DNA of 64,000 nucleotides from Dasypus novemcinctus (lineage: Eukaryota > Chordata > Mammalia > Cingulata > Dasypodidae). Below are positions 1-59,528 of this stretch, piece by piece; the first letter of the stretch is position 1, and every line of letters begins with the position of its first letter. The DNA is taken from positions 28,536,053 through 28,600,052 of the forward strand of contig NC_080702.1 of assembly GCF_030445035.2 (NCBI RefSeq), given 5' to 3'. The translations under genes were made by a program, and so were the position numbers. The notes beneath the pieces were generated by a model, which was not told where the DNA came from, made no database searches, and saw nothing but the letters and a program-made list of their open reading frames with translations.

Positions 1-939
1 GTCCAACTGACTAAAGATAATTTTTTGGATAAGTATTAATTTGAATATATATGCATAATATTTTTCACAGACTCCATCGCTACCCTCTATTCCTTCTCTG
101 CCCGTTCATGGAGACAATATATTGAGAATCTATACCTCAAGTAGGAAGATAAGCTCATGAGAACTTAGATCTCCCCACAATTCCCTCATGCACTGACCTC
201 ATTGATGCTGTCCACCAGTTTAATTTGGAGTATACAAACACACACCAGATATGAGCCAGGGTCTGTCATGCCCTCCCAGGTAGAGGTTATGCCAGGACGA
301 GGATGCATCACACACCCACAGGTTGACACAGAAGCACAGGGCACAGTCCTGGGCCAGGTAGGAGCACAGGCTCAAGAAGGGAAAGCCAGGAACCTCAGGG
401 GAAAGGGAGGTCCTGGGAATGAGAGTGCAGAGGCGGAATGTTGAAGGAGAGAGGGAATTTTCTGAGATAGGAAGAACAAGGCTTCAGAGAGTATAATAGT
501 AAGGTTTTGTTACGGGCAAGGTATGAGAGAGGGGTAGAATACTAAAAGGGGAGATTAGGATCCCAGTATGGAAAGGTAATAGGAAATAAGAGGATCACTT
601 GGCTTCTCAATGGATGAATCCAAGATTTACTGATGGTGTACTAAATTCAGAAACTTTTGTTAAAGGAGAGAAAATGATACTGTACTATTTTATTCATCAA
701 CACTGCTATTTGCTATAAATGTCCAAGATTCCCAGGATAAAAGGATAAGGAGGACTCTATAAAATAAAGTCACTGGCCAAAACAACATTCCAATTGATTT
801 GAGTCCAGAGGCAGGGTAGAATAGACTTATGCTATCCATAGCCAGCCCCAAACAATTAGCAGATCCATTAGCAAAATAAATGTTATTTTAATCTATAAAT
901 TGTGTGGTGATATTTTTATGTAGCAAGAGATAACCAGAC
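1..939. other. No gene recognised; possible MaLR-like tail at the right end
   Basis: AT-rich sequence without a recognisable exon. The only open frame above 60 codons (202-444) shows no domain. The last ~100 bases (aataaatg followed by an AT-rich stretch) resemble the 3' end of a MaLR-type LTR, but the match is weak. The final six bases, CCAGAC at 934-939, recur exactly at 17560-17565 and are taken as the left target-site duplication of the LTR that begins at 940. Confidence 0.4.
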
Positions 940-1020
940 TGTTGGAGATTTGGACCCGAAGGGTATCGGGAATGAAAGAAAGAAAAAGGAGAGTGAAAGA
1001 GAAGAAAGAGAGAGAGAGAG
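940..1020 (-). mobile_element. LTR piece, class II (ERVK-like), 3' part of the element
   Basis: These 81 bases match the end of the whole solo LTR at 50747-51154: both begin TGTTGGAGATTTGGACCC on the plus strand and run into an AG/GA-rich tract. The remaining part of the same LTR type starts in a GA tract at 17216. CCAGAC directly precedes this piece and directly follows the other one, so both look like parts of a single fossil LTR. The 6 bp duplication favours class II (ERVK-like) by analogy with that group; the family name is inferred. Confidence 0.7.
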
Positions 1021-1100
1021 ATTGCCAATACCTTGGTTTTGGACTTGTAGCCTCTAAAACCCTGAGCCAATAAAGTTCTGTCATTTAAGCAAACCAGCAC
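1021..1100 (+). mobile_element. MaLR-like LTR tail
   Basis: The stretch reads 'ccttggttttggactt...tagcctctaaaaccctgagccaataaag', a pattern typical of the 3' ends of MLT1/MST-type MaLR LTRs, including the AATAAA signal. It starts exactly where the GA tract of the preceding LTR piece stops. It is a short fossil fragment and the subfamily cannot be named from this length. Confidence 0.5.
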
Positions 1101-3499
1101 ACTTGGGGCCTACTTCCAGCGGGGACACCTCAGCTCTGCCCCCAGAACATCAGGTCTGAAGTTTCTCTAAAGACAGGTGTCAGAAGAGGTCAATGCTTTG
1201 AGGGCACTGGAGCTTTCCCATTGGGGAGGTACCACCTTCAGGAACCACATGCCTAGATGCCTGCAGCCCCGCTTGCCATGGGCTCCTGCATCTTCACGTT
1301 CGGGTCCTTCATGGTCAAGGTCTCCCTCCCTGACGTTCCACTCCCACATTGCCCACAGTGTGACCGTTTGAAATGATTGGATGAATACTGAAGAAGAGAA
1401 AGATGATGTTTTCACAGCCATCTCTTGCTGTGGGTGTGATCCACTTTGAACTTGAGTAGAGAAGTTCAAAGCATGACCATCAGTAGAGAGGTCTTTGACT
1501 AGATGACTTAATAAGACCACTCGAGCGTCTCGATTGGACTATGTGAGTGAGGCCTGGCTCAGGTCGAGTCTCTGCCAACCGCCCTCGCTGGCACTGATAG
1601 AAGCAGAAGCACAGAGAGAGAAACAGACAAAGGCAGGGAAATCACCATGTGTGATCCTGCCGCGCCAAGACTGAGCGGGGAGGCCCAGAAGAGAGCAGCC
1701 CCGCGCCAGCTTTGCTGAGAGCTGCGGAAGAGCAGAGGCCTCGACAGAGACCCACAGCCATCACGCTTTACCTCGCGGTGGCTGACTTTGGTGGGAAAGC
1801 ACCTGTCACCGTGCCTCGAGTTAGACTTTTCACGTTCTTGCAGCTTTGACCCCAAAGAAATCCCCTAACCAAAGTCAACCCGTTGCTGGTACTTTGCAAC
1901 GGCCGCCCTTGGGCCAAGGAAAACCCTCGGCTTGTGGGGAGACCTGGCCCAGCACAGCCACGCTCACCCTGCCCACCAGTCAGCCTGCTCCTCCCACCAT
2001 GCCCGCCACCCCCCACCTGCACCATTCCAGGGACTCCCCGTGCTGTCCACGGCCCCAGGTAGCCTGCCTTGACGTGTCCCCTCTGGAGTGGGCGACTTTC
2101 CGTGTGCCCACAGCACCTTCTCCTCGTCTTTGTGTCATCAGTGACCATGTTCTTATGCCCCAATCTGCCCCTCCCCAGCTGTCAGCTCTAGCAGGGCCCG
2201 GACAGTGCCCGACTCCCTGTCCCCGGTGCCAAACCCCCAGAAGGCACCCCATAAAGGTTTGTGGAGTGACTGCATGACTGGGAGGCAGTGGGAAGAGAAG
2301 AGATCTGGACGCTTTCCAGCATGCCCTCTGAGCTGAGACCATCAGGCTGGTGACCGCAGGCCTTGGAGCCCCAAGGAGGAGGATAGGACCTCAGGGCCAG
2401 AAGGCGTCTGGGCACTGACCTCCCGACCAGCTGCTTGACACTTACACTGGACGTGCAGGCAGCACGGTCAACAGGGAGGTGACCGCACAACCACCGTGTT
2501 CAGAGCAGGACACCGAGGCCGGCCTCCTTACCGGGGACCCAGGCCTGGGTGTGGGGAGAGCGCATGCCCCTTTGGCAGCCCCCAGCTCTGCCGTTCTGTG
2601 TGCCGTGGCCAGGAGCCCTCCCGGGGTGCTCCCCACCGTGCATTCCAGCTCCACGGGCGCCGCGTTCAGGCTTACGCAGGCGAGGCCTTGTCCACCCCAG
2701 AGCCCCCTGCCCGCACGGCTATTCCCTGTAACCCACCACCTGCTTGGGCTCTTCTGCAAAGCACAGCCTTTGGAGTCAGAGTGTCCAGGGTGGAAAACAC
2801 ACAGCTGGAGCAGGTCACGGCCCTGTGTCGGGATCGCAGACCCTGCGTTTTCTAGAAGGCCAAAGGAAGCCAGTGATGGCCGGCTCAGGCGGGTGTGTTG
2901 GGGTTGAAGAGTTGATGTGAAACCTCGAAAGAGCTTCAACTCAGGAGGTCCCCTGGCCCAGCGAGCATGCCAGGGGCAAGGCTCCGCTCAGGAAGAGGGG
3001 CGGGCGAGAGCAGGGACCGGGAGCCCACCTCGGAGGCTGGGCTCACTCTCTCGGAGCTGCAGGACTTGAGTGCCGTCTATGGGGGCAGGAGCAGGTGGGC
3101 CAGGAGGGCTCCTTAGCAGCAGCGAGCACACTGACCCTCAGCACTGGGGGTCCGCCCTGCATCCACCCTGGGCTCCCCTGCCTCTCTCATATCCCCCTGG
3201 GCTCTGCTAGAGTTGGGGTGGGTTCAGGTGCCCTGGGTCTTCTCAGGGAGGACAGGAGGAGGCAGAGGGGCAGGAGCACAAGGCTGACCTGCCCTCTCCC
3301 CTGCTCAGACTCCCAAGGCTGCGCCCGCCTCCAGGTCTGTTCCAGGTGCGCTGTCCGCTGGCACGGGAGAAAGTGAAAAATCAGTCAGAGAGGCTTTTCC
3401 AGCCTTCAGAGATTCCCTCCCCACGGCCCTAAGAAACAGGTCTGCCACCAATTCCTGAGTCCAGATCTCGCGGAAGAAATGAGGTCACGAGGCCAAGAA
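1101..3499. other. GC-rich unique sequence, no gene recognised
   Basis: Several overlapping open frames (up to 165 codons on the minus strand at 2442-2939) run here on different strands. This is expected in GC-rich non-coding DNA where stop codons are rare. None shows a domain, a conserved splice pattern or a signal peptide that I recognise. A short stretch near 2220-2290 resembles an old MIR/L2-type tail, but too weakly to call. Confidence 0.4.
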
Positions 3500-6400
3500 G
3501 TGCACCATACCCCAGTCAGAACAAATCCGAAGAGACCTCCTCCAGGACACATACTCCTCAGAAGGTCAAATGTCAAAGACAAAGAGAAAATTCTCAGAGC
3601 AGCAAGGAAGAAGCAAACTGTCACCTACAAGTATGCCCAGTAAGACTCCATGTGGATTTCCCTTCAGAAACCATGAAGGCGAGAAGACAGAGGCATGATA
3701 CAACTAGGATAGTGAAGGAGCAAAACCGCCAGCCTAGAATTCTTTATCCTGCAAAACTGTCCTTCCGATACGAGGGCGAGTAGAAAACACTCACAAAGAA
3801 ACAAAAACTAAGAGACTTTGCCAAGAAGAGAATCGAACTTTGCAGGAAATAGTAAAGGAAGCCTTAGAACCTGAGATCAAAAGACAGGAGAGAGAGAGGC
3901 CTGGAGAAGAGCAGAGAAGAAAGACTAGCAGAATGGCTAACCCAAAGAGTAAGAAGACAGACAAAAATAGCATACATCCTAAGAAAACCCAAGAGTAAAA
4001 CGGTGGAAGGAAATCATGCATTTAAAGCAATATCATTGAAGGTGAGTAGATTAAACTCCCCAATCAAAAGGTACAGGCTGACAGAATGGATGAAAAAAAC
4101 TTGAGTCATCCATCTGCTGCTTTGTAGACCCAGGGCTGCAAAACAGCCAAAAGTGAAAGGTTGGAAAAAGATACTCCATGCAAACAATCACCAAAAAGAG
4201 CAGGGGGAGCTAGACTGCCCTCAGGCAAAACAGACTTGAATGCAAAAAGTTATGAGAGATAGAGGATGTATGAATAAAAGGGACCATCCACCAGGAAGCA
4301 ATCAGTCGTAAATATCTAGGTAGCTAACCAGTGGAGCCCAAAATACATGGGACAAACGCTGGCAAAACTCAAGGGAGAAATAGGCATCTCTACAAGGATC
4401 GTTGCAGACTTCAATGCCCCACTCGTATCATGAGCTAGAACAATTAGGCTGAAGAGCAATGAGGAATGAGAGAAGTTAACGGCATGATCAACGACTGAGA
4501 CCTAACAGACATCTATAGAAGGCTGCATCCCAACTCAGCGGGGTCTGCATTCTTCTCAAGTGCCCATGGATCTTTTTCCAGGAGAGACCACATGTTAGGG
4601 CACAATGCAGCTCTCGGTCAATAGAGAAAGATTGAAATGAATCAAAGCACCTTCTGAGATCAAAATGGAAGGAAAGTGGAAATCAGTCACAAACAGGACC
4701 AAAGTCAATTCGCCAAGGTGTGGAGGCCGAAGAACACATCCTTACGTAATCAGTGGGTCCAAGAAGAAATCGCCAGTGAAGTCAGTCAATCTTTGGAGAC
4801 AAAGAAATATGAGAACACAACTTATCAAAACATAGGGGATACAGCAAAAGCAATCTTGGGAGGGAAAATTAGAGCCTTCGATGCTGACATGAAAAACAAA
4901 GAAAGAGGTAAATGCAAAGATCGAACTGAATGACTAGAGAAACTAGAAGGAGAAGAGCAAGCCAATCCTGAAACAAGCAAGAGGAAAGAAAGAAAGAAAG
5001 ATGAGAGCAGAAATAAATGAAATTGAGAACAACCACCACAAACAATAGAGCAAATCAACAAAACCTAAAGCTGGTCCTTTGAGACAAACCCCTAGCCAGA
5101 CTAACCGAAAACAAAAGAGAGAAGATGTAAATCATTGGAATCAGAAATGAATGAAAGAGGGGATGTTGTGATTGACCCCACAGAAATGAAAAGGATCCCA
5201 AGAGGATATTATGAGAAGCTGCATGCCAACAAAGTAGACAACCTGGATGAAATGGACAAATTCCTAGAAATGCGCAGACCACCTACACTGATGCTATGAG
5301 AAATAGAATATCTTAACAGACCATCACAGTGAAAGAGTTTGAATCCATCATCCCAAATCTCCCAGCCAAGAATAGTCCAGGGCCAGATGGTTTCACAGGT
5401 GAATTGTACCAAGCATTTAGAAAAGAATGAACACCAATCCTGTTTAGACTCTTCCCAAAAATTGAACAGGAGGAAAAATGACCCAAGACAGTCGATGAAG
5501 CCAATGTCAGCCTAATACCAAAGCCAGGTAAAGACACCACAAGGAAAGAAAATTAGAGACCAATCTCTCGAATGAACATCAATGCAAAAACTCTCGACAA
5601 AATACTTGCCAATAGAATCCAAGAGCATATCAAAAGACTTATACATCACGGCCAAGTGGGATTTATTCCTGTCACGCAAGTCTGGTTCAACATAAGGAAA
5701 TCAATCCAAGACAAACAACACATCATCATCTCAATCGATACGGAAAAGGCATTTGACAAAATCCAGCATCCTTTTTCAGATACAAACTTCAAACAATAGG
5801 AATAGAAGGAAAATTCCTGAACATGATAATGGGCATAGGTGGAAAACCCACAGCTGTGATGTGCTCATGGACTGGAAGAATAAATATCATGAAGATATCA
5901 ATCTTTCCCAAACCGATTTATTGATTCAATGCAGTACCAACCAAAATGCCAACAGCCATTTTACAGAATCAAAACAGGCCATTACCAAATTCATTTGGAA
6001 GGGAAAGTGCATCCAAATAGCCAAAAGTATTCTGAACAAGAAGAGCGACATGGGAGCAATTTCACTGCCTGGCCTTCAAAGGTATTACAAAGCTACCGTG
6101 GTCAAAACAGGAAGGTAGCAGCATAAAGATAGGCACATCTATCGGTGGAATAGAATGGAAAACCCAGAAAAACACCCTCACCTCTACTGTCAACTGGTTT
6201 TTGACAAACCTACCAAGGCCGTGTTAATGGGACATAATGGGTTCTTTGACAAATGGTGCTGGGGGAACTGGATATCTATGACCAAAAGAATGAAAGAGGA
6301 CCCTATCTCACTCCCTACACAAGAATCAACTGAAAATGGATTGAAGACCTAGATAGAAAAGCAGATATGAAAGACCTAGAAGAAAACATAGGGAAGCATC

Positions 6401-7410
6401 TTCAAGACCTTGTAGTAGGTGGCGGTTTTTCTGTGACCTTATGCCCAAAGCACAGGCCACAAGAGAAAAAAAAAATAGATAAAAGGGACCTCCACAAAAT
6501 TAAACACTTGTGCACCTCACAGGACTTTGTCAAAAGGGTGAAAAGGCAGGTGATTCAATAGAGGAAGATATTTGGAAATCACATGTCTGATAAGGGTCTA
6601 ATATCCATGATCTATAATGAGATCTTTACATCTCAACAATAAAAGGAGAAACAATCCAATTTAAAAATGAGCAACAGATTGAGTACATATTTGTCCAAAG
6701 AAGAACTATGAATGGCAAAAAAACACATGGGGAAAATACTCAAGATCTCTTCTGATTAGGGCAATGCAAATCAAAACCCACAAGGACTTATCACTTCACA
6801 TCTATCAGAATGGCCACTATTCCCAAAGACAGAGAACTCCAAGTGCTGGAGAGGCTGTGGAGAGATAGGAGCACTTCTTCCCGGCTGGCTGGTGGCAATG
6901 CAGGACGGTCCAGCCACTGTGGAGGACTGTTTGGCAGTCCCTCAAGAAGTTGAAAATAGACTCGCCATGTGACCCTGCAGTACCACCACTGGGTCTATAG
7001 CCAGAAGAACCAAGAGCAGTGACACAAACAGACATCTGCACGTCAATTTTCCCAGTGGCATTCTTCACACTTGCCAAAAGTTGGAAACAATCCAGGTGTC
7101 CATCGATGGATGAGTGGAAAAACAAGCTGGTGAATTCAACCAAGGAAAAGTTAGGCAGCAGTACGAAGAAATGAATTGTCAAGAAGAAGACAACGTGAAT
7201 GACCCTGGAGGAGATTCTTTGAAGTGAAGCCAGCCAGACACAAAAGGGCCAATACCACAAGATTGTGTTATGATGAACCAAATAGACTGTGTGACATACT
7301 GTATGATAAAAAAACAATTTCTACTAGCCAGGCCATTTAATTGAGAGTTGTACAGTTTTATTCAATTGTGCTTGCTTTTTCTTTTTAAATGATTGCTTCT
7401 ATCGCCAATT
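3500..7410 (+). mobile_element. LINE-1, 5'-truncated, old
   Basis: The left part (to ~3780) corresponds to the end of L1 ORF1, ending in the frame that reads 'ILYPAKLSFRY'. ORF2 follows: endonuclease-like sequence around 4100-4700, then reverse-transcriptase sequence around 5400-5760 ('LIPKPGKDTTRK', '[20 protein letters not shown]', '[16 protein letters not shown]'). After 5760 the frame breaks and the catalytic FxDD region is missing, so an internal deletion is present. C-terminal ORF2 sequence continues from ~5860 to ~7310 in many short frames, including a cysteine-poor tail near 6780-7310. A long 166-codon frame on the opposite strand (6817-7317) is only its mirror. The copy is inactive and diverged by many stops and indels. 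Confidence 0.9.
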
Positions 7411-8673
7411 CTTAAGTGGACAAGATAGAGTTAGAAATAATCAAGGCAGTGGGAAGCCTCTGGGCAGGATTGGTGGCACAGCTGCCATGTCTGACTTTGG
7501 TCTCATTTGCACCTCATCACTGGCCAGATGGAGACAGCAGCCCAGGAGTGCAAGTGGGTCTCCTCAGACCACACGGCCCTCCCCCAGCCCTGTGTGGAGT
7601 TGGATTTGGGGTTCCGTCCATCCCCTTCCTGCTTCTCCCATGTCTGAGTGTGTGCATTCGCTCCATGTGAAACCAGACTCCAGGGTTCACAGTGTCTGCC
7701 TGCCATGGACGTGACGCTGTCCCAGGAAGTCGATGCTAGAATGGATCCCGCTGTGTGGCAAGGAGACTGGGGGTGGGCCCCAGTGACTAACCTGGGCTCC
7801 CCAAAATGGAAAGGACAGAGCAGCGGGCTCTGAACCCAGCTGGGTCTCCCCCGAGCTGAGGCCCGAGCCACCCGCAGCCTTCCCAGGGAGCTGTGGGGGG
7901 GACGTGTTGGCAGAATGGCGTCCAGGGAACAAGGCGATCCAGGAGAGGGGATGGACAGACAGCCGTGCAGAGGGACATTGGCTGGGTTCTGACAGTTGAA
8001 GGGCCCAGGGAAAATGACCTAAGGAGGTGACCTCACTTCCTCAGTGACAGAACTTGGAACCCTGGTAACCAGGCACCCAGATTCCACAGGCAGCGCCTTC
8101 CCAGCTCACTTGGCAGGAGACGCTCGAGAGAGCAACATGTTCCCCTGCTGCTTTGTGCGACCCCAATGCTCCAGCCTCCGCCAAAGCGGGAATGAATCCC
8201 CTTGCCATTGCTTCTAACATTGGCTCAGGCCTCAGCCATGGAGCCGCTGGCCATTGGCACCCAGGAGGCACCCAGAGGTGACACGGGATGGCCCAGGGTA
8301 GCCGGTCAGCACAGGCCACCACTGTGCTCCTCCTGGGCAGCCCCACGTCCATCGTCTTCCCAGGGTGTGGGGGTGTGGACGGGGGACCACCGCAGGCAGG
8401 AGCAGCTGTCAGGGTTGGGGACCCAGAGGGCCTTCCCTGTCCCCTGCCAGGTCACGGGCGGGGGTGGGAAGAGGCAGCTTGGGGACATCCATGTGGACCA
8501 TGTCTATCCTGAGCCTCGAGCTCCCCTGTACTCTCCACCGGGCTCAGGGAAAGGCAGAGCCCACCTGGGCCTGCCCTGGGTCCTGGCCCGATGGAGGGCT
8601 AGTGTCCCCTGCGGGGGAGGACAGGCGCCTCGCTGACGCCCCTTGGCCCGGCCACCGGGCACTGTGTTCGCAG
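7411..8673. other. Region before the RalGDS-like exons, no exon found
   Basis: Between the LINE-1 tail and the first recognised RalGDS-like exon, GC content rises steeply. I looked for an N-terminal RalGDS exon and found none. Open frames of 60-178 codons on both strands overlap each other and match nothing I know. The segment could hold a promoter or an untranslated exon, but nothing in the sequence decides this. Confidence 0.4.
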
Positions 8674-11600
8674 AGCTCCACGCAGGTGGTCGGCGAGGAG
8701 CTGGAGGAGGGGCTGGTCTACACCGTCTCTCTGAGGAAGGTGCCGGTCCATCGGGGCCCCGGCCAGGGCCGGCGCTGGTTCCAGGTGAGAGCAGGCACCA
8801 AGGGGGGGCCCGAGGCAGCCAGGGAGCACCCCGGGGCCGTGTTCCACCCTGACCGCCGCCCATGCGCTCTTCAAGGCTTTCCCACCCGAGTGGCCCCATA
8901 GCCTGCTCCCCGAGGAACCTGGGACCCCCTGGTCCCCCAGCACACTGCCACTCCACAGATGGGGAAGGTCACTGCACACATGGAGAGGGGTGGGAGAGGG
9001 TCCTTAGCGCAGGATTCCCGTCAGGGCCGGCTGGAGGGTGGGCGCACTGCAGACCCGTGCACGTCATGCTGCTGTGTTTGCGAGTCCCCTCCTTGGCCCC
9101 ACGTCCCCAGCGGCATCTCCGTGACTGTCCTTGCCCATCTGCTCTGAGCTGTCCAGCTCTCCTGCTGAGGAGGGTTCTCGCTGTCTCCCAGAAGCGCCCC
9201 CTTGACCCTCCCAGGTAGGAGCTGGGGCTGCCTCGGCTGCCCAGGATTCCAGGAGGGTGGTGGCTCAGAGCAGCCTTTCAGCCTTCGGGGCTGCTAGAGC
9301 TGAAGGTCCTGTCCCGGGGCCCTGCCAGCTCGGCTGCCCTGGACACCACCCGCAGGCCCGCAGGCAGGGGTCCTCCCGGCCCAGCAGAGGCTCCAGGCAA
9401 GGGCCAGCTGGGCAGAGGACACGCAGACCTCCCTTTCTCCAGCGAGGGCTGGCTGGCCTCAAAGAGGGACAGCGGTGGGGGACCACCGGCTGTCTTTGGG
9501 GGGACCGTCCCTGCAGCCCCTGGCCCTGGCATTTCCCTTCCTTGTCCTGAGGTGGGGTCAGGGTGGCCCACGGCATCCCCTTGTTCCTCTGGCCCCGGGA
9601 CAGTGCAGTCCAGAAGGTGGTCTCCTGACCAGGAGGGTCTGCAGTTGCCCAGGGTCTGCTCAGCCCCTCGGCCCTGCAGGGGCCTTTCTCCCCCAAGGAC
9701 CCTCCAGGCACCCGCCCTTTCAGGCAGGGGCCTCGCCTTTCAGGTGTTGGCTCACCTGCGGTTCCGTGTGAAGGCTGAGGACCTTTCTCCACTAGGTACC
9801 CGCATGGCCCCTCAGCCAGACATTGCTCAGGGCTCAGGGTAGCAGGTGGGCCCTGGCCCCGCCTGGCTGGCCCACCCAGGCCTTGGCAGTGCCTCCTCCA
9901 TCTGGAATACCAGCTGGTGGCCGAGCTGCAGGCGTGCTGCTGCTACGACTGCCTTGTGCCCGATGGGCACTTCAGGGCCTGGTTTGAGGCCGTGGAGCAG
10001 CTCGGCCAGAAGGACAGGTGAGGCCAGGGGGTCATCAGGCCCCGGTGGGGGCAGGAGCGCCCTGGTGGCTCCTGGGCCCGCGTAGGCCCTGCTGCCCAAG
10101 GGGGGCCGGGGCACGCGGACGCCAACTGCTGTGGGGACCCCGGGAGGGAGTCCGAGCTGAGGCTCCCGGGAGCCTGATGGCTGCCCCCTGTCCTGTAGCC
10201 TCCTCCTGTCTCGTGAGTGGGAGCCACCCCCCGAGGCGGCCAGTGAGAGCCTCCAGGCCCAACAGCCCCTGGAAGGCAGCGAGCCTTGGAGCGGAGAGTG
10301 AGTTCCCCTTGTGGGGCAGGCGAGGGTGGGCTCAGGGGAGCTCCAGGCTGAGCGTGGGCTGGGGGGGGTCTGCCTGCCACTGAGCGCCAGGATCCCAGCT
10401 CCACTCCCGACCAGCCCTGGGGCTGGGAGAGTCACCCCCTCCCCGGGCCTGTTTCCTGCTCTGGGCAACGGGGTGGTGCGGCGTGAGCTCTGGGGCAGTC
10501 GGGGCCCCACTGGCTCCTCTTGATGGACCTAGGACGTAGCCGTGTGCAGATTTAGCAGGGCAGAGGGGGGCAGGCATGCCAGGGGAGGCCCCCAAGGTAA
10601 GCCGAGCCTCCGTCCAGCCGCCAGGGCCCCAACGCTGAGTCCAGCGGCAGCGGCAGCAGCACCGCCCTCTCCAGCGTCCAGCTCCAGGGTGGCGCTGACC
10701 TGGGCAGCGGGGATGCCGCAGATTCTCCTCACCCGCATGTGGCCGGCTCCTCCAGCTCTGCGGTGCAAATCCACCTGGACCACATCCCGGAGGCCCAGGA
10801 CGGTCAGGAAGCGAAGGTGACTGCCCAGCCCTGCTCCCTGGGGCCCTCGCCCTCCCACCGCCCCTCCAGTGCCTGCAGGGCCCTCCCCGTGTCCACGAGG
10901 GCTGGAGCCCCGTTGACTCGTCCAGACCTTCTAGAGCCTCCTGGAGCTTCTCGAGCAGCCCGGGCTGCCCCGAGGCTCCCGGCCTTCTGCTGACCTCCCG
11001 TCCCCCACAGCCGGGGCCGTCGACCTGCGCATCGTCTCGGAGCGGCTCCACCATCACGGCAGCATCGGGAGGAACATCCTCTTCCTCCTCCATCCAAGCC
11101 AGGGTCATCCGGACCAGCCAAAAGCACCGTGACTCACGGCCACGCTACAAATGGCACGTGGGCGACTGCTGCTTCATCCGTGTCGCCCTGGCCGAGGACA
11201 GCAGCCACAAGGTCCAGAGCATCCTGGTGAGCCGGGCGTGTGGCCGCCCCCTGGGCTGCGGTGGCTCAGGCAGTAGGCACCTGATAAGTGCCGTGGTCCC
11301 TGCCTGGCGCCCTGGAGCAGACTTGCCAGTGGCTGGGGAAGGACCGATGGCCACGTCCAGGGGCAGGAAGAGCATGTGTGCAACCGCGATCAGGGCTCAG
11401 GACAGTGGACACAGGCAGGCCCAGGGAGGCATGTGCTTGGTGGGCCGAGGAGCAGCCGCGAGGCCAGGGCTGAAGGAGCAGGGGTCGGGGAAAGGCTGGG
11501 GTCAGAGAGGCGCTGGGAGTCCCATTGGGCCCTGGAGCTGCCAGACGGAGCGTGACTTTCTCAGGAGCCACTGAAGGGTCAGAGCAGAGCAGGGACAGCA

Positions 11601-13310
11601 GGAGAGCTTTGGCCCCAGAGTGGACAGTGAGGCAGTGCGTGGAGACACTGGCTGGCGAGGGGTTGCTGCCGTGACCCAGAGGGGAGGACGGGGTCTGCCC
11701 CAGGTCGGTGGCCGTGGAGGCGTGAGCAGGGCCCAGATCCCAGATGGATGTGCAGATGGAGCCACCCCTGCCCCACGGCCCAGAGGCTGCAGAGCTGCAG
11801 TGGTGCATAGCCACATGGGCTGCACTTCTCTGGTGGCCAAGAGCTGGCGTGCTTGTTCTAAGCTGTCCCTGAGTGAGCCTTGGCCTGAGCCCTGCCGGCA
11901 CCCAGGCCCTCGTGCTCAAGGCAGCTGCGCTCTAGACCTTGCTGAGCACAGCTGCCTCCTGGAGCCCAGGGCCTCCTGCGGGGCCGTAGGGTGTCTCCCA
12001 GCCTCCTCTCGGACATCTGGGCTTGGACTGGACGTGTGTGTTCTGCCTGGGGGTTCACTGCTATGCGGAGGCCTCCTGGAGGGGCAGGGGCAGGGCAGGG
12101 GCCCTCCCCGAGGGCGAGGTGTCTCCTGTGATGGGGAGGGAGGAGGGACAGAGAGAGGCCCCGAGGTCACTCCACAGTCCCCACCCTCTGCTGCAAGGCC
12201 ACCCTTTGTCCCAGGGCTCTGGGAACCCCTAGCAGTTGTGCAGGCTGAGGAGCCAGGGGACGGGTTTCAGCCTGCAGGGCAGGGGATTTGGGCCCTCCCT
12301 TGGAAACACCCTCAAGACAGAGCTGCAGGTTCTTGTAGGAGATGGGGTGAGGAATGACTGGGAAAGAGCCCGTACTGTGTGGAGTGTCCCTGGGGGAGCA
12401 AGAGAAGACAGGGAGGCCCCTGGTGACCCAGCCCCGAGCAGAGGGGCCTCCTCGGGGTCTCTGGCAGCTGTGCCATGGGGAGCCGGCTCCAGGACCCATG
12501 CCCTGAGGCCTGTGGCTGACCCACCGCAGGTGACCGACCAAGACAGGGCTCCAGCCGTGACCCGCAAGGCCCTGGAAGAGCACGAGCTGGCTGGGGAGCA
12601 GCCCGCAGACTACCAGCTGGTGCAGATCCTCTCAGGAGATGGCAGTGAGTCGGGGGCGAGTGGAGAGGGCGGGGGCGCAGGGATGGGTGGGGGCAGCACG
12701 GCCCCGGGCCGAAGGTGCGAGGCCCCGCTCAGGAGGCCAGGTGCGGGGCTGCCCATGGCGGGCTGGGCAGGCTGGTCCCTGGGAGCGCTGGGCTCAGGGG
12801 CATGCGCTGGGCTGGAGAAGGCCAGTTTCAGCGCCGCCAGTCCCAGCAGGGAGGCGGCAGGGGTGCTTGGGGGATGAGGCGACCTCGTGGCAGCTCCACT
12901 CTGAGGCTGGCAGGTGGGAGTCAGAGTCGCTTTTGGAACAAGGGTTCCCCGCTTTCAGCTGTGTCTCTGCAGTCTTCCCTGGTCATTCAGGGTGTCGGTC
13001 AGGCGGCTCCTCTGTGGTCCAGGAGTTGTACTGGGGAAGTCGGGTGCCTGGGCGAGGCCGGCTCTCGTGGGGACACAGAGGGTGGGGTTCATCCGTGCTC
13101 CGGAGCACGGCTGACCCCCCTCTGCCCCACCCCCCCAGCGCGGCAGATCCTGGATGGTGCCAACGTGTATTACGCTATGGCGCCCTCGCCCGATTATCGG
13201 TTTCTTCTCCTGAGGAAGACCACGCCCCTGGATGCCAAGGTCAAAGAGAGAGCTCTCTCAGTCGGGGGAGTCAGCAGAAGGGACCCAGGTTCCGAAAGGG
13301 GAAACTGTAA
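8674..13310 (+). pseudogene. RalGDS-like gene remnant: RA domain kept, RasGEF domain absent
   Basis: Seven exons with AG/GT borders and matching phases resemble RalGDS: 8674-8784 (GEELEEGLVYTVSLRKV), 9890-10017 (LVPDGHFRAWFEAVEQL), 10199-10297, 10618-10816 (SGDAAD...AGSSSS...PEAQDGQE), 11011-11226 (Ser-rich linker, then CCFIRVALAEDS), 12530-12644 (QDRAPAVTRKALEEHEL) and 13139-~13310 (GANVYYAMAPSPDYRFLLLRK). In RalGDS proteins the N-terminal exon is followed by the REM and CDC25-type GEF domains, which activate Ral. Only 1.1 kb separates the first two exons here and it contains no GEF sequence. The RA domain, which in RalGDS binds Ras-GTP, is open throughout. In the last exon the RA frame runs on to a stop at 13497, while the RalGDS-like C-terminal tail (SQQKGPRFRKGKL, stop at 13310) sits in another frame, so one indel near 13245 is likely. 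It is a diverged paralogue, probably decaying. A functional GEF-less gene is the alternative. Confidence 0.8.
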
Positions 13311-13499
13311 CTGGCCCCAGCCACCCCCAGCCTCAGGGCCCCCTTCCCTTCCAGGTCCACCTGGCCAAGTCCTTCTGCTGACCCCAGCCATCGTGGGCCA
13401 GGCCAGGCAGGCGCTTCCCTCCCCAGCAGCCAGTCTGGGCCACCCCCAGACTCCACTCACACCCCTGGGCCTGTCCTGCCCCCCGAAACACGGCTAGTC

Positions 13500-16105
13500 G
13501 GAGGGAGGATCTGCGCGAGATTGTCAAAGAACTGAACTGAGAATCAACAGCAACAAAGACTATCGATCTAAAGGGGAAGGGCAAGATCTACCTTTGTCCT
13601 TAGTAGATGTTCGATGTGAAGGTTTTATAATTAAATTCTTGTTTCTACTATAGCCTGGGAGTTGAGTTTGGTTCTTGCATTTCCTGTGTTCATTTAAATG
13701 AGATACAGGCTCTGGCAGTGCTCAATCAAAGGAGAAATCCTGCAGAGTCATCCATTGATTTTAGAAGGGAGAAGCGACAAGAGCCAGCTGCCCCTCCCCG
13801 GGTTCCTGAAGCCAACATGGGCATCCACAGCAGAGAGCATTTCGGTGCGTTTCGGCATTCCACCCGGCGGGAGCCGAGAGCTCCCAGGAGGACTGTCAGG
13901 CTTAGACCATTCTCAAAGACCGTTTCCTGAGCCCGGGCAGGGCAGCGGTTGCCTTTCTACCTCTTTGGAGGAAGAAGGAACCTTTCCCGCTTCTTGCCTG
14001 AGGCTTTGCTTGCACACCAAATAGGAACTTGTCATTTTCAAGGGCAAACGATAGGGTGACAGCAGCAGTAGGTAGGGCAAGGAGAACATAGCTGAGAATG
14101 TGGAATGGAAAGGGCCAGAGGAGCCAACGAGGAGGATTCTTGGCACCAGTGCAAGGGCAGGCAGACCCGGCCTCCTCGGTGCCCCTCAGGGCCTCATGGT
14201 CCAAGCTTGACCTTGGAGTTCCTGCTTTGCGATCCTCATTCCTGGCACCGGAATTCCTTTTCCTGAGGCGGGGACGGGGGTTTGAGCTGCAGCGTCCCGG
14301 GCTCCAGCTGGGCCTCCTTGGTGTCCTCACCACTGCCCCCTGTGAATGAGTGCTTCCCACTGCCGTGCCATTCCCTGTGCACGTCCTTCCCCCGGAAAAT
14401 GTGGGCTCCCCCGGGGGCTCTCCTTGCTGGCCGGGGCCTGCGTGCCAGGAGTTCTCAATGCCAAGACAAGAGCGCTCCTTCCTGGCAGCCAGAGACCCCG
14501 CGCGCCCTTTTCTGCGGGTCGAGGGGAAGACGGGCCGTGCGTTCTGAGGTCCACACTCCCGCTGTGTGGCCGCTGCCTGGCCTCAGGAGGAGTTTGGCTT
14601 TGAGCGCCTCGAGCTTGTGGGACCCTGGGAGGGCTGCGTCCATCGGTGCACAACTTGGGCTCTGCTGATGTCACCAGGGTGTGGACAGGTCCTGTCCAGA
14701 GGGGGTGCAAGTCACAGCCTGCTGGGACCGACGAGCACAGTCTTGCCCCGATTCCCCTCATGGCACGTTCAATCGCTGAGCAGCTCCCTGTCCGGGGGGG
14801 TGACAGCCCCTGTCCTGAGCTCCCCGTGGGCTCCAGCCTGGCTTCCCCATGACCGGGAGCTAAAGGTGGAAGCCCTGGCTCAGCACAGAGCCCAGGAGCC
14901 TGCACCAGCCTCCCGCCTGCCCCAGGTGAGGGCCGAGAGGCCCCTTCCATCTGGGTGATCGGGGAATTCCAACACTCTCATCATCCACTTTCAAGAGGAA
15001 ATATTGGTCTCGAATGCACTTTCTCTGTCAATAAGAGAGTCTCTAGCTCCAGCGGGCGCCGTGAGCTGCTGGTGCTGAATGCTCACCTCTGAAAGGGAAA
15101 GCGTCACTGATTGCCGGAGGGTTGCTGTGATACCAGTCATTGTCCCCCAATGCTCGTTCCGTACTGGTAGTGGGGCTCGGTTCCCTGGCCTCCCTCACGT
15201 CCTCTCCTACCCCAGCTGGGACAGGCTGGACATCCAGTTCAGGGATCCCGTCTGCAAACACAGGGGCCGGGTGGCCGAAGAGGAAGAGGAGGGGGCCGCC
15301 TGGCCTTGTCGTCGGCCACACTCCCCTGCCTGCCCCCAGGTGCCCTGCTCCTGGCTGTCCTCTGTGGGCGGCGCCTGGGCACCTTGACCGTGGGGAGGTG
15401 GCCAGATATCAGGTAGCCTCCCCCCCGCCCTCTTCACCCCCAGCTTCTCCAGGCTCTCCAAGCCCACCAAGCCCATCAGCAGCATGGCCCCCCCATCCGG
15501 CAGTGTTCCAGGAGCCCCCAAGTTCCATGGGACCAGGGAAGCACAGGGAGGGCTGGTGGCACACAGCGTTTGCTGCTGCCTGCGAGCAGAGTGCCCTGCA
15601 GCGACCAGTGGGCATCACTGCCCTATGCGCAGAGTCCCCCTGGTCGACTGAGCCGGCCAGGGCCTGCGGGCGCATGTGCTCCCTGATCCTGCGGAGGGAG
15701 AATGCTCACACCTGTGGGTCCCTGGGTGCAGCGTGGTCTTGCCAGAGACCCTCCCCGCCCACTCCTACCCAAGCACCAGAACAGAAGTGGAACCGGGCAG
15801 CAAGGAGGGAACAGTCAGCAGCGTGGCACTGCCCTGCCACTGGGAGCCACATCAGCCGGGGAGGCTGCCAGGCAGCGGCTGATGCAACGAGCTCCGACCC
15901 CAGGGTGGCTATGGGAGAACGTCCCTGCCTGGAGCCCAGCAGCAGGCCAGCAGTCGGGAGCCACCTGGAGAGCCGTGGGCAGGGGAGGAGTGGCCAAGCC
16001 CGAGGCTGAGGGCAGTTTCCCAGATGAGAGCCCTGTCCTGTCCTCTCCCGGGGTGTGGGCGGTAGGCGTGCCAGCCATGCACCCACACCCATCCATGGGA
16101 GGCGA
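13500..16105. other. GC-rich sequence downstream of the RalGDS-like remnant, no gene recognised
   Basis: A possible 3' untranslated end (ataattaaattcttg near 13630) lies just after the RalGDS-like exons, but no clear polyadenylation signal is visible. Open frames up to 289 codons (15140-16009) overlap on both strands and match nothing I know. One stretch at about 15216-15340 starts after a fair AG acceptor and encodes an acidic run (VAEEEEEG). I cannot assign it to a gene. Confidence 0.35.
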
Positions 16106-16230
16106 GCTGGCACGTGCTGAGCGCACGCTCACACACTTGATGTCCAGCTCTTCCGTATAAAGCTGGGAAACTGACACCGAGAGAGAGGGAGCAACTGGCC
16201 TGGGGCACAGGGCTGGGCAGAGTCCCGCGT
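16106..16230 (+). repeat. Probable MIR SINE fragment
   Basis: The order of motifs fits the 3' half of an ancient MIR: a 'ctgagcgcacgctcac' segment, then 'agctgggaaactgacacc', 'gagagagggagcaactggcc' and 'ggggcacagggctgg'. Divergence is high, as expected for a repeat predating placental mammals. Confidence 0.5.
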
Positions 16231-17215
16231 GTAAGGTAGTCTGGGAAGATTCCTGGGCCAGGGCTTCTCCCAGAAGCAGGAGCTTCTGTTCCTCCCCTTC
16301 CTGCTCCAGGTCTCAAGGGACCTTCAGGAACTTCTCTATTTGAAAAGAGAAGGATGAATCCAGGGCTGCAGTTTCCTTGGGACCACTGCTTTGGGCCCAT
16401 CGGTGCTCTCTCCCACTCAACAGAAGGCGAGTGCGTCAGACTGCTCACAACCACGCCAGCATTTCCAGTGAGGAGCACAGAATGAATGAGTGGACACTCA
16501 AATGACGGTACCACAAGATCCCTTGACCCCAAGGCAATGGGACACTCTCCCCTGGCTCCAAGTCCCCCACCAAGACCTCAAGACTCTTTTGGCAAAATGG
16601 ACTGAAGAAGGACAATTCCAGCTGAGCACTGGGCTTTGCCAAAGCAAGCCCAAAGAGACGTTATTCAAACAAAGGTCGGTCTTTGACCATCAATGGTCAG
16701 GGACCAGGCCACTCAGGGTGTCCCTGTCCCATGGGTAAGGAGATGCAAACCAAGAGCAGCCCCTTTCCTAGCTGCAGCATCTTCCACTTGAGCTCTTCCT
16801 GTCTCAGCCAGAGAGTGATGGTGACAACTGGCTCTGCCTGCTGGACAGCGGCCTGGTTCGTGGATGCACTGAACCAGGGCATCCTTCCTTCAAGGAATGT
16901 CCCCTCCACCCAGGGCTTGGAGGACGGCATCAAGCATCACGTCACAGTCAGGGCCAGACCCAGTTGCTCCCAGGGTTGAGATCCCAGCTCTCGGAGAGGG
17001 CCCTGCCAGGGCTTTTCTGGCTACTGCGCTGACAGCAGGGTGCAGGGCTTATCCTGAGCTCTTCATTCGACCTGGGCACAAGCTTCTGCTGGTTGGGGCA
17101 GCCCCAGCCTTCAGTCCACGGAGTCAAACATCTCTACCTCCATCTCATTCCTGTCCAATGGCTCGAGCACCTCTCCCTCCTCTTCAGCATCCCCCTCATC
17201 CAGAGGCTGAAGTCT
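16231..17215. other. Unassigned sequence to the right edge of the GC-rich block
   Basis: No exon or named repeat was recognised. The segment ends in a GA microsatellite (17216-17230) that forms the junction with the second LTR piece. Confidence 0.35.
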
Positions 17216-17559
17216 GAGAGAGAGAGAGAGCTGGAATCAGGGGGCCCGTGAGTAGAGACTCATCAAGCAACTTTATTGTTTACAAGGGGCTCTCTATATA
17301 CCCCAGTCTATGCGACAACAAGCAGCAACTGTGCAGTTAACTATTAGCATTACTAAGGAACTCAAAAAATCTTATCTCAAGGTACGAAGTCTAAGTGTTT
17401 TATTTACTACAAAAGGTATGTGCTCATCGTTTCTTTCAGCCTTTAACAGCTTCATCCTGTTTGCCGGGAACTCTTAATTACTGCATTCCTTAAGGTGCAA
17501 GCATAGCCATGGAAACAGCACTTCTCTCCTGTGAGACCACTGTGCCTCAGTTTCCAACA
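17216..17559 (-). mobile_element. LTR piece, class II (ERVK-like), 5' part of the element
   Basis: Aligned by eye with the whole solo LTR at 50747-51154, this piece covers everything the 940-1020 piece lacks. It includes the plus-strand stretches 'acaaggggctctctatatac' (a TATA box region when read on the minus strand) and 'tgcctcagtttccaaca'. It ends CA and is followed at once by CCAGAC (17560-17565), the same six bases that precede position 940. The two pieces thus appear to be one fossil LTR with a 16.2 kb block between them. Confidence 0.75.
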
Positions 17560-17664
17560 CCAGACTACCAGAATAAGAGCACATGCTCCTACATCTCTCC
17601 AGGTAAAACTGGCCCCCATTGAATAAAACAGGAATTTGGTTCTGAATTTAATCTGGTTGATTTA

Positions 17665-17870
17665 TTTTATTTTTTATTTTTTTATATTTTAGAGGAGTTG
17701 TGAGCTTACAAAATGGTCATGCTTAACATGCATAATTCCCATACATCACTCCTCCACCAACACCATGCATTGTTGTGGAACATTTGCTACAGATTATGAA
17801 AGAACATCAAAATATTAGTATTAGCTATGATATATAGTTTACATTGATACATTTTTTCCAAAATGGTTGA
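17665..17870 (-). mobile_element. LINE-1 3' end fragment
   Basis: A T-rich start followed by 'gaggagttgtgagcttaca', 'atacatcactcctccaccaa' and 'cattgttgtggaacattt' is the same 3' untranslated sequence seen at 22180 and 26160, where it adjoins LINE-1 ORF2. The copy is inserted in minus orientation and is heavily 5'-truncated. Confidence 0.7.
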
Positions 17871-18600
17871 TTTTTAAATCACCTCAAGGAATGGTTCTTT
17901 TCATAAAGGAGTATTGTAAATCAGAAATAGAAATTGAATTTCATAAAAATACTTCCCCTCACAGACCTTAATGTAGATATTTTTCATCTCCTTGGTGAAA
18001 TATAAAGATATTTGGGTTTTCTAATATGGAGACGTTTTAATTCCTGGAATTACTTCACCCTGGCAGAGTTCCAAGATATCCTGTTTTCCTCCCACTGCTG
18101 AGAACAAGCACAACTCACAAATAACAACACTATTAGCTTTATTTCTTGATCCCGGCTGCAAGTTCAGCCCACCTGCCTGCTACTGCTTCACTCTACCACC
18201 TCCAGATTCATCACATTTCCAGGACTCTATGAATCAGCTGGCACCGACTTTAACCTTACTTTCTACATGAGTGTGGAAGGTAGTCTTAAACCAATTAGAA
18301 TATTTCATTCACTTGGGCACACTGATTGGATGGCAGTGGGCAAGTGGGCTAATCACAGCCAACAGGATTCAATTCTGAGAATTATATTAGCATTGTCCAA
18401 AGAAACAATCTCCTCTCCCCCAGGACTTAAACCTGGGAAGAGGGAAGCTTGAATCTTCTGGTCCCACTATGAGGAGAGCCTTCTGAGAGAAAATCCAAGG
18501 CAGGAAGATGGCACCGTCATGATATGGAGACAAATATCATTCAGATGGCCTCTTTTTAGCCAGAATTTAGCCATGCCTAAAGCTAGTTGTATCTAAGTCT
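17871..18600. other. Unassigned AT-rich sequence
   Basis: No exon or nameable repeat was seen. The region lies just downstream (in the minus direction) of the zinc-finger remnant and may contain its former 3' untranslated region. Confidence 0.35.
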
Positions 18601-50489: not shown

Positions 50490-51275
50490 AGGTTTGTGTG
50501 GCCCAACCCAGTCAGGATGTGTCTTAATCCTATTACTGGAGTCCTTCCTAAGCAGAGTGAATGCAGATGTGAGAGAGAAATGGACACAGGAAGAAGCTGA
50601 AATCAATGAAACGGGGAGGAGAAAGGGAGAGACCAAGAGACGCCGCCACGTGCTTTGCCATGTGGCAGAGGATCCAAGGACTGCTGATAGGCCAGCCCAG
50701 AACACTAGTCTTCAAGAAGGCATCGCCTTGAAGATGCTTTGACTTGTGTTGGAGATTTGGACCCGAAGGGTATCGGGAATGAAAGAAAAAGGGAGAGTGA
50801 AAGAAAGAAAGAACGAGAGAGCTGGATCAGGGGGTCTGCAAGTAGAGACGCATCAGACAACTTTGTTTACAAGGGGCTCTCTATATACCCCAGTCTACAT
50901 GACAACAAGCAGAACATGCAGTTAACTACTAGCATTACTAAGGAACTCTAAGAACTCAAAAAATCTTATCTCAAGGAACAAAGTCTAAGTGTTCTATTTA
51001 CTACAAAAGGTATGTGCTCATCTTCTCTTTCAGCCTTTAACAGCTTCATCCGGTTTGCTGGGAACTCTTATTTACTGCATTCCTTACGTTACAAGCATAG
51101 CCATGGAGACAGCAAGTCTCTCCTTGTGAGGCCAGTGTGCCTCAGTTTCCAACAGATTTGGACTTTCTTTTAGCCTCAGAACCGTAAGCTAATAAATTCC
51201 CAAAGTAGCAGTCCACCCATTTCACGGTATTTGTTTGAGCAACCTAGGAAACGAAAACAGTATCCCGTCTCAAAT
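50490..51275 (+). mobile_element. MaLR-like LTR containing a class II LTR
   Basis: Outer sequence at 50490-50740 ('atcctattactggagtcctt', 'gatgtgagagagaaatggac') continues at 51161-51275 ('tttagcctcagaaccgtaag', then 'taataaattccc'). This is the layout of an MLT1/MST-type LTR, interrupted by the solo LTR at 50747-51154. Confidence 0.65.
50747..51154 (-). mobile_element. Solo LTR, class II (ERVK-like), looks whole
   Basis: A 408 bp TG...CA element. The flanking hexamers GACTTG (50741-50746) and GATTTG (51155-51160) differ at one base, fitting a 6 bp class II duplication. Read on the minus strand it has a TATA-like box (gggtatatagagagcccc), consistent with an LTR promoter, and ends 'gggtccaaatctccaaca'. 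It is the reference for the two pieces at 940-1020 and 17216-17559. Confidence 0.82.
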
Positions 51276-52445: not shown

Positions 52446-53462
52446 TAGATGATGAAACAGGTTCCTGAGTTAATGAGCACCCAAGATTTATCATGGCTTT
52501 CAAATGAGTAACAGACTGTAAGTGCTGTGAGAGCTTCAAGAACTTCTGATACCTACTGCTTATACCGCAGGGACTCGACTCTGACTGGTCACCTAGAGTC
52601 AGGCCGGAGCCACAGGACAAGGGCCAACCTCTACAACCTCTACAAGAGCCGCAACTTTGGGGGCCCAGGCCACCGGCACTTTTGACCAACTAGCTTATGC
52701 TATCCTATGTGGTGAATTATATCGACAGGCTATTTTAATTTGGACACACAGATGTGAGCTAATCTATTCCTATTGTGAAACACTTTCATTGTAAATCTTT
52801 GCATGTTCCGCATTTGGTTGGATTTTGGGTTTTTTTTTTTTAACTTGCTTTTCACCTTCAACCTGCTTCCACATTCCGGTTTCAGTAAGGATTCTTCCTT
52901 TCCAACAATCTTCCGTGGTTATTTGGCCATATCCTTTGAAAAACAGCATTGCTTTACACCGCTTGACTTATTCACTACTTTGTGGGGTAGACGGGCAGCA
53001 AGCAGTGAAGTATGTCAGGGATGCTATGATGGGATGGCAAGAAAAAGGGGTACGTGGGGAAGACCCTGCTGTGAAGTATGACCCATTAGCAAAGATTCCT
53101 GGGAGGTGCTTCCCATGAATTATGCCGTTGTTTTAGGGGCAGGGTGGGGGGTAATTCCTGGTATAGGGAACAGCCACTGCAAAGGCCCCGAGGTGGCTGA
53201 AGAACTCAAGGAACAGCCAGGCAGCCAGTAAGGGGGAGCGCATGGGGGGTGACGGGCAGGGGTGCAGGGCCTTGTGGACTCCGGGGAGGGCTTTAGCTTT
53301 CACCCTGAGGAAGGTGGGAGCCATGGAGCACTCTTAGCAGAGGAGGGACGGGACCCAACTCAGATGTTCACAGGTGTCCTCTGGCCGCTGCGGGGTGAGG
53401 GTGGGAGCCGGGGGAGGTGGGTTTGTGGCGGGCTTCTTGCCCACCCGCTGGAGCGGTGCGAA
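52446..53462. other. Sequence between the V2R pseudogene and DHPS; an old unidentified repeat near 53160
   Basis: The segment at about 53160-53380 ('cactgcaaaggccccgaggt', 'gcagggccttgtggactc', 'accctgaggaaggtgggagc') matches a common ancient mammalian interspersed repeat whose family name I cannot give. An open frame at 52825-53118 ends VKYVRDAMMGWQEKG... and is not recognised. No upstream DHPS exon was found here. Confidence 0.4.
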
Positions 53463-53880
53463 GGGGCCTCCCAAACCTGGGACACGCCCTCCGTCACAGC
53501 AGCCCTGCCCCCGTGTCTGTCTGTCTGTCTGCTGGAGGGGCCGCAGAGGGGCCTCCTAAACCTGGGGCACGCCCTCCGTCACGGCAGCCCTGCCCCCGTG
53601 TCTGTCTGTCTGTCTGCTGGAGGGGCCGCAGAGGGGCCTCCTAAACCTGGACACGCCCTCCGTCACGGCAGCCCTGCCCCTGTGTCTGTCTGTCTGTCTG
53701 CTGGAGGGGCCGCAGAGGGGCATCCTAAACCTGGACACGCCCTCCGTCACGGCAGCCCTGCCCCTGTGTCTGTCTGTCCGTCTGCTGGAGGGGCCGCGGA
53801 GGGGCCTCCTAAACCTGGACACGCCCTCCGTCACGGCAGCCCTGTCCCCGTGTCTGTCTGTCTGTCTCCTGACTGGCTGT
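53463..53880 (+). repeat. Minisatellite, five units of about 84-85 bp
   Basis: Units begin near 53466, 53551, 53636, 53721 and 53804. Each contains 'cacgccctccgtcac', 'gcagccctgcccc', a (TGTC)n run and 'gctggaggggccgc'. Units differ at few positions. The array lies in the intron directly before the penultimate DHPS exon. The long open frame across it is a by-product of the near-multiple-of-three unit. Confidence 0.93.
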
Positions 53881-53897
53881 CCCGCGCCTGCCCACAG

Positions 53898-54205
53898 CGG
53901 AACGGGGCCGACTACTCCGTCTACGTCAACACGGCCCAGGAGTTCGACGGCTCCGATTCGGGCGCGCGGCCTGACGAGGCCGTCTCCTGGGGCAAGCTCC
54001 GGGTGGACGCGCAGCCGGTCAAGGTGAGGGCGAGGGCGGGGGCGGGGGCGGGGGCGGGGGGTTTCAGGCCGAGGCTGAGGGTAGCAGAGCTCACCAGGGC
54101 CCCCCGCAGGTCTACGCCGATGCCTCCCTGGTCTTCCCGCTGCTGGTGGCCGAGACCTTCGCCCAGAAGGTGGACGCCTTCACGCCGGAGAAGAACGAGG
54201 ACTGA
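53898..54205 (+). CDS. DHPS: Deoxyhypusine synthase, last two exons only
   Basis: Exons 53898-54023 and 54110-54205 encode the C-terminal ~73 residues, starting [20 protein letters not shown] and ending [15 protein letters not shown] then TGA. DHPS transfers the aminobutyl group of spermidine to one lysine of eIF5A, the first step of hypusine formation, as a cytosolic NAD-dependent tetramer. The conserved [13 protein letters not shown] segment is part of the family's NAD/substrate-binding region. Borders are AG/GT, phase 0 on both sides, and the residues are near identical to human as I recall it, so this part looks functional. The upstream exons (about 295 residues in human), normally within a few kilobases, are absent: repeats, a V2R pseudogene and a minisatellite lie there instead. 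The gene is cut by a breakpoint or a wrong assembly join. Confidence 0.95.
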
Positions 54206-54241
54206 AGGGTGGCGGCGGCGGGCAGCTCTCGCCCTGCTCTA

Positions 54242-54247
54242 TTTATT
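54242..54247 (-). promoter_or_regulatory. WDR83: Polyadenylation signal of WDR83
   Basis: AATAAA on the minus strand lies about 100 bases beyond the WDR83 stop codon (54346-54348) and inside the DHPS 3' untranslated region. The two transcripts therefore overlap tail-to-tail. Confidence 0.7.
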
Positions 54248-54292
54248 AGGTCGAAGCCCCTTCCTCTCCCCCTGCAGCCCCAGCGTCTCGGG

Positions 54293-54298
54293 AATAAA
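54293..54298 (+). promoter_or_regulatory. DHPS: Polyadenylation signal of DHPS
   Basis: AATAAA lies 88 bases after the DHPS stop codon. Cleavage 10-25 bases later would fall just short of the WDR83 stop codon, so overlap with WDR83 is confined to the untranslated ends. Confidence 0.8.
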
Positions 54299-54345
54299 TG
54301 GCCTGGCGCCCTCTGCGTCCTCTGCGTCCTCGGGCGTCCCTGGCT

Positions 54346-57758: not shown

Positions 57759-58136
57759 GGCTCCGACAGCCCTTCCCGCCGCCTTAAATCCGACGATCCC
57801 GCGGCTTCTGCTCCGGGAACCACGCTCGGGTGTAACCTTAGTATTGTCCCCCGCGGTCTACTTCCTGTTTCCCAATTTCCGGTTCAAGTTTCGACTTTTT
57901 GGAGCTCGCAGTGGGAATACTGAAGCCCGCTTCCAGAGTTTCCCCCTAATTCCCGTTTCCCGGGAGCGGTTCTGGCCTCTTCCCACGCTCCGACTTCTGG
58001 CTGGGGGGCGTCCTGGCCCCCGCCGCGAGGACCGGAAGTGGAGGCCTGCGGTGTCACGGTGAAAGCCCCCCTTCCCGTCCACGCCGGAAGTGGCCGCTGC
58101 ACGGCGGCGGAGGCGCGAGCCGGCCTTGCCCTCGCT
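57759..58136. promoter_or_regulatory. Bidirectional promoter of WDR83 and WDR83OS
   Basis: Only 378 bp separate the two divergent start codons, and the stretch is GC-rich with many CpGs. ETS/GABP-type sites are visible: CCGGAAGTG at 58032-58040 and again at 58084-58092, and ACTTCCTG and TTCCGG near 57860-57882. No TATA box lies at a suitable place. Paired ETS sites in a CpG-rich, TATA-less spacer are typical of housekeeping bidirectional promoters. Transcription start sites are inferred, not seen. Confidence 0.8.
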
Positions 58137-59220: not shown

Positions 59221-59528
59221 TGCTGGGCCAGAGGGCTTGTATCCTGGACCCCCTTTCAACACCTCCCCCCAGGCCTGGCCCGCGGCTGCTCAGCGTCCTG
59301 CGCTCAGTAGCGTCAGCTACTGCCCTGGGCTCCCCTAGCTGAGGTGGCCTCAGGGGCCCGAGCCAGGGGAGGGAGCCTGGCCCTTGGCCCGGGCCCCACT
59401 TGTGCCAAGGCCTAGGGGAAAGCTTCAGAGGCTAACCCCTTGCCGCTGCCTCCTCCACCCTGCCTGCTGCCAAAGGAAAAATCCACATTTCAGGCACTTC
59501 TGCCTATTTTCTTATTGAAACGGTTAAT

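Follow-up and report, generated by a model that had tools for sequence, protein, structure and literature searches.

How a segment of host DNA carrying gene exons came to lie inside a retroviral long terminal repeat (LTR) is the question raised by the stretch of 64,000 nucleotides from Dasypus novemcinctus analyzed here and referred to as the window (NC_080702.1, C45:28536053-28600052). Near its left end, one solo LTR and its target duplication lie divided around a 16.2 kb block that belongs to a dispersed RALGDS-like family. In the history that we consider probable, the solo LTR was present first and the gene-bearing unit entered it later through its GA-rich stretch, by pairing between GA tracts. 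The insertion itself is well supported, while the mechanism is one that we infer.

A long terminal repeat in two parts

Both pieces of the LTR were placed by local alignment and BLAST against a yardstick from the same family, the whole solo LTR at 50747-51154 (- strand). The left piece occupies 940-1021 on the - strand and ends in a GA run; positions 940-1018 align to LTR bases 1-75, as written on the + strand, with 91% identity over 79 columns by BLAST. The right piece, also on the - strand, extends from 17216 to 17559 and starts in a GA run, with positions 17217-17559 aligning to LTR bases 60-408 (87% over 354 columns). The original prediction had proposed complementary parts of one LTR, a proposal that pieces covering the same bases would have undermined. 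The overlap is confined to LTR bases 60-75, within the GA-rich stretch, and the complementarity therefore stands. The inner edges were also correctly placed in a GA tract, with a GA run of 15 bp on each side.

The hexamer CCAGAC directly adjoins the outer ends of both pieces, at 934-939 on the left and 17560-17565 on the right, as had been predicted for the 6 bp duplication of a single insertion. When the two pieces are joined as one LTR, the result runs TGTTGG...CCAACA with CCAGAC on both sides, so that both ends of a solo LTR and its 6 bp target duplication are present. Since CCAGAC is found 19 times in the window, the hexamer by itself would be weak evidence; its position at the two exact ends of a single LTR gives it weight.

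The LTR family produces duplications of this length elsewhere, as seen in eight whole copies including the one at 50747. Three of the eight have a perfect 6 bp repeat (AGTTGG, CTTTTG and GAAAGA) and two match at five of six positions: GACTTG/GATTTG around the 50747 copy, and GGGAAA/GAGAAA around a second copy (L007) if that LTR starts TATTGG. The flanking repeat is absent from the remaining three, which adjoin a flank resembling a primer-binding site, presumably of the tRNA-Lys type, and look like the LTRs of proviruses. Because of this flank, the retroviral sense of the LTR would be the - strand. Short GA runs of 7-12 bp occur at the equivalent stretch in other copies of the family (n = 5), and a GA-rich place at this point is thus common to the family.

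Between the LTR pieces, the first base shared with other copies of the block is 1022-1023 and the last is 17215, a small correction to the edges first proposed. Portions of the block can be aligned with RALGDS-like copies. Among the 20 of 66 listed open reading frames (ORFs) that were scanned, there was no Pfam match at E 1e-3, and no dedicated gag/pol search was made between the LTR pieces.

The inserted block and its dispersed family

On the basis of alignment to other copies, the block (1022-17215, + strand) represents an inserted copy of a RALGDS-like duplicated unit that is dispersed in the genome. Three stretches on the + strand resemble the RALGDS RA domain: exon 1 at 11104-11226 (structure 1lxd, E 3.6e-4), exon 2 at 12530-12640 (structure 2b3a, E 1.7e-9; PF00788, E 0.0032, 18.5 bits, cut-off 21) and exon 3, a weak match, at 13141-13257 (structure 3kh0, E 0.014). 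Because these stretches are spaced like exons over 11104-13257, the block reads as a genomic copy with introns and not as a processed copy. Its GC content is 0.51-0.71 per kb outside a degenerate element on the + strand at 3466-7386, compared to approximately 0.41 in the flanks. That element was recognized by reading and is presumably a LINE-1; two of its frames gave no Pfam match. Two other copies of the unit contain its 3' part as well, from 5857 and 5610 onward, and the element therefore probably predates the spread of the unit.

Two other copies (L040 and L041) contain, by hand arithmetic, approximately 6.8-6.9 kb of additional DNA between the equivalent of window position 9870 and the RA exon, which places a loss in the window copy at 9870-9871. 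Approximately 4 kb of this extra part was read in each copy. It contains RasGEF_N in L040 (E 2.3e-9) and RasGEF in both (E 8e-11 in L040 and 4.1e-13 in L041). As the segment with the GEF exons is missing, the window copy is probably a pseudogene. A long proline/alanine-rich open frame lies between the RasGEF_N and RasGEF exons (L040:5959-6972 and L041:5864-6946); the L040 frame, of 338 aa, has no Pfam match.

The extent of the family was assessed with RA exon 2 as the query over the whole genome (3.61 Gb in 546 contigs), for which 150 of 260 candidates were scored. There are at least 129 matches. Of these, 61 have 76-97% amino-acid identity, one of them covering only 30 of 37 residues, and they are distributed over 16 contigs: 23 on C39, 11 on C30, six on C24, four on C29, three on C40, two each on C3, C8 and C1, and one on each of eight further contigs. 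The other 68, at 53-65% identity, look like a second, older set. Twenty of this lower-identity set lie on C37 at 41.9-51.8 Mb, and contigs C37, C34 and C36 hold another amplified RALGDS-related family.

Right ends were inspected in six of the 60 other close loci, on C3, C29, C39 (two copies), C40 and C41, and left ends in four other copies. Alignments of all six right ends to the window span 988-1003 columns at 91-93% identity. The family has the properties of a duplicon, with copies of at least 1 kb and at least 90% identity on different chromosomes, contigs being assumed to represent different chromosomes. Kimura distances among the seven right ends are 0.057-0.088, with the window differing from the six others by 0.059-0.073, and the left end of the window differs from one copy by 0.081. 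Distances this nearly equal are consistent with a burst of copying. Mammalian DNA accumulates approximately 2.2e-9 substitutions per site per year, and at that rate the burst would date to roughly 15 million years ago, unless gene conversion has blurred the distances.

GA tracts and the probable route of entry

With the window included, five left and seven right ends were read, drawn from the 61 close RA loci and from left ends of which 40 of 229 candidates were scored. In all six other copies the right-end alignment to the window stops at base 17215; beyond it these copies share a tail of approximately 60 bp and then a GA tract, and the tail is missing at the right junction of the window (17215-17216). 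The six right flanks and that of the window (1.2 kb each, from 200 bp past 17215) had no mutual match at E 1e-3. The left ends read were those at C39 61.6 Mb, C29 34.9 Mb, C3 174.9 Mb and C40 54.5 Mb, and in all four a GA tract precedes the common left-end sequence TGCC(A/G)ATACCTTG. What stands before that sequence is the GA run of the LTR in the window and different DNA in the other copies; three left flanks, the window's among them, had nothing in common, and the other two, 80-base pieces, were compared by eye. The longest pure GA runs, read on the + strand of the unit, measure 12-31 bp at the five left ends and from 11 to at least 100 bp at the seven right ends. Both sides of the copies read are thus bordered by GA tracts in the same strand orientation. 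For comparison, 0.075% of positions in the 284 kb surrounding the window fall within 12 bp of a + strand tract of (GA)5 or longer; since GA may travel with the unit itself, this background is no more than a rough guide.

When the 40 scored left ends were matched to the 61 RA exons, 21 pairs lay on the same strand and none on opposite strands within 40 kb. Left end and RA exon are separated by 11.5 kb in the window; the spacing is 18.1-20.8 kb in 16 other copies and 26.2-30.3 kb in four, and the RA exon lies 4.6-4.9 kb from the right end in six copies (hand arithmetic). Judged by distance, seven of the 40 left ends follow an RA exon of the same orientation by 4.3-5.0 kb: two on C29 (16 kb and 88.03 Mb) and one each on C12 (14.7 kb), C40 (63.98 Mb), C30 (5.76 Mb), C1 (209.52 Mb) and C47 (126.19 Mb). 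These seven cases resemble a right end that abuts a left end with little DNA in between, either as tandem units or as permuted copies of a circle. Among the scored candidates of both lists, no further RA exon lies within 40 kb downstream of any of the seven, three of which are less than 18 kb from a contig end. Five scored left ends out of 40 (on C29, C12, C24 and C39) are less than 20 kb from a contig end, which suggests subtelomeric units.

A second insertion allows the target to be recognized. The unit copy at C39 61.6 Mb sits within a different repeat, for which the comparison copy is one found 12 kb upstream of the window; the left flank corresponds to repeat bases 15-253 and the right flank to 311-447. 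Both recognizable targets are divided repeats, one divided at a GA-rich place in an LTR and the other at a purine-rich place.

The sequence of events that would account for these observations begins with a retroviral solo LTR and its 6 bp duplication already in place. A copy of the dispersed RALGDS-like unit would then enter the LTR at the GA-rich stretch and leave both LTR parts intact, with a broken or stalled GA tract annealing to the GA tracts that border the unit. Two routes may be envisaged. Under the first, the broken tract would prime synthesis on one GA border of the unit and copying would stop at the other, a form of microsatellite-primed template switching or repair synthesis. Under the second, the unit would be closed to a circle through one GA tract and then re-inserted. 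Either way, each insertion would rebuild the GA borders and the new copy could donate again. The window copy would have lost its last ~60 bp and the ~6.8 kb with the GEF exons, either during insertion or afterwards. The head-to-tail arrangements favor the circle without deciding the matter.

Several observations weigh against this history. The ends read, five on the left and seven on the right, are few for a family with 61 close RA loci and 40 left ends scored, and the sites struck are recognizable in two cases only, the LTR and one other repeat. At C39 61.6 Mb, approximately 57 bp of the repeat are missing; the comparison repeat is purine-rich at the break but lacks a true GA tract; and when a second copy of the repeat is used for comparison, the left alignment ends short of the break point. 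The right junction of the window, where GTCT meets GAGAGA, lacks the tail and offers no useful microhomology to the other copies. For twelve of the 40 left ends, none of the listed RA exons is less than 40 kb away. Further, the GA could belong to the unit rather than to the target, and the data do not distinguish a circle from direct copying.

A bolder extension of entry through GA tracts would treat the host gene as having turned into a self-spreading DNA element that needs no enzyme: a unit of approximately 24 kb with (GA)n borders that forms circles through its tracts, opens again and integrates at GA microsatellites across many chromosomes, with its borders rebuilt each time. This is conceivable, and we regard it as doubtful.

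The alternative that survives best is that the unit has GA ends of its own and is nearly indifferent to its target, in which case the LTR would represent a coincidence or a mild preference. GA is present at every end read, the seven head-to-tail arrangements suggest from their distances that it also lies between units, and the second recognizable target is merely purine-rich in the comparison copy. Against indifference stands the point of entry into the LTR, which falls at bases 60-75 of 408, in the GA-rich stretch that other copies of the LTR have in common. Weighing both, we consider indifferent insertion rather unlikely.

The original prediction offered two explanations, and preferred the one under which a contig with the RALGDS-like block had been wrongly placed in a GA-tract gap of an intact LTR. 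Both joins do fall within a simple repeat, the GC content of the block is unlike that of the flanks, and repeat families are known to cause errors in assemblies. Conversely, the window contains no N and hence no gap, and its GA runs are just 15 bp, which is short if long reads were used for the assembly. GA borders recur at four other left and six other right ends, and because the unit meets GA tracts at these loci with other flanks, a single misplacement is insufficient. Nor is the block a stray duplicate of one of the compared copies, from which it differs by 6-8%. As for the LTR flanks, the sequence on the left (600-939) occurs once except for two weak, partial hits (3 of 3 candidates scored). 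On the right (17566-17900), the initial ~85 bp had no match elsewhere among 40 scored of 3154 candidates, the rest being repeat. An undivided LTR with these flanks was not found among the candidates scored. Misassembly is unlikely, and strongly so, and the preference for it is not supported. The other explanation, in which the LTR was already present and received a host segment through its GA tract, is supported; the block belongs to a large dispersed family with GA borders at all five left and seven right ends read.

Movement of the unit by a transposase, a Helitron-like protein or another enzyme acting on defined termini would fit the high copy number and the termini common to the copies read. 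It is still more improbable than misassembly, given the lack of a Pfam match in the 20 of 66 ORFs scanned at E 1e-3, the lack by eye of a target duplication outside the GA tract in the ends read, and a right end that is not exact to the base, the window being without the tail of six others. The presence in the block of what is presumably a LINE-1 is the one point for an RNA copy inserted through LINE-1, an idea that can be set aside given the intron-like DNA between the RA-domain exons, the absence of a poly(A) end at both junctions, and the internal position of the LINE-1, whose 3' part two other copies share.

Known systems and neighboring features

The locus bears on how interspersed segmental duplications in mammals choose their landing sites. 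Gene-bearing segments have been inserted at CAGGG-type simple repeats during duplicative transposition in human pericentromeric regions; compared to that case, both the repeat and the places differ here. The landing site can be read at this locus, where an LTR of known structure, framed by its own target duplication, shows the state before insertion closely. The order of events is also obtained, LTR first and block later, and a large family with common ends lets the GA-tract rule be counted. If entry through GA tracts is correct, a simple repeat found genome-wide would be enough to disperse a multi-exon gene.

In yeast, segmental duplications arise by template switching at microsatellites, low-complexity stretches or microhomology, a process designated MMIR (PMC2518615). 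In that report, 70 of 71 events without Rad52 were intrachromosomal, with 8-9 nt of microhomology or poly(T) at the sequenced breakpoints (PMC2518615). Segmental duplication by switching between microsatellites resembles the route proposed for the armadillo unit, and a microsatellite at the junction, as in MMIR, is found here as GA runs at 5/5 left and 7/7 right ends read. The yeast cases are single selected events (PMC2518615), whereas the present case is a family with GA tracts that recurs across many contigs, known from sequence alone. For the interspersed core duplicons of primates, above all lcr16a, a circular intermediate has been proposed, with SVA or Alu elements at breakpoints (PMC9132208). 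Many interchromosomal copies of a duplicated block, with repeats at the breakpoints, are common to both systems; the repeats are SVA/Alu there (PMC9132208) and a GA tract at every end read here, and the gene and the lineage differ.

The remainder of the window contains approximately ten copies of a tRNA-like short interspersed element of ~420 bp within 28 kb (21616-49418), which may resemble the armadillo family of such elements. It is followed by a GC-rich gene region (53253-64000), in which a tandem array at 53447-53871, of approximately five ~84 bp units, lies within a long open frame (53253-54911). A WD40-like exon on the - strand at 56980-57525 (PF25173, E 7.1e-4, below the cut-off) is reminiscent of WDR83. 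The ORF at 62721-63302 (+ strand) has no Pfam match and is reminiscent of MAN2B1, presumably a neighbor of WDR83 in human 19p13.

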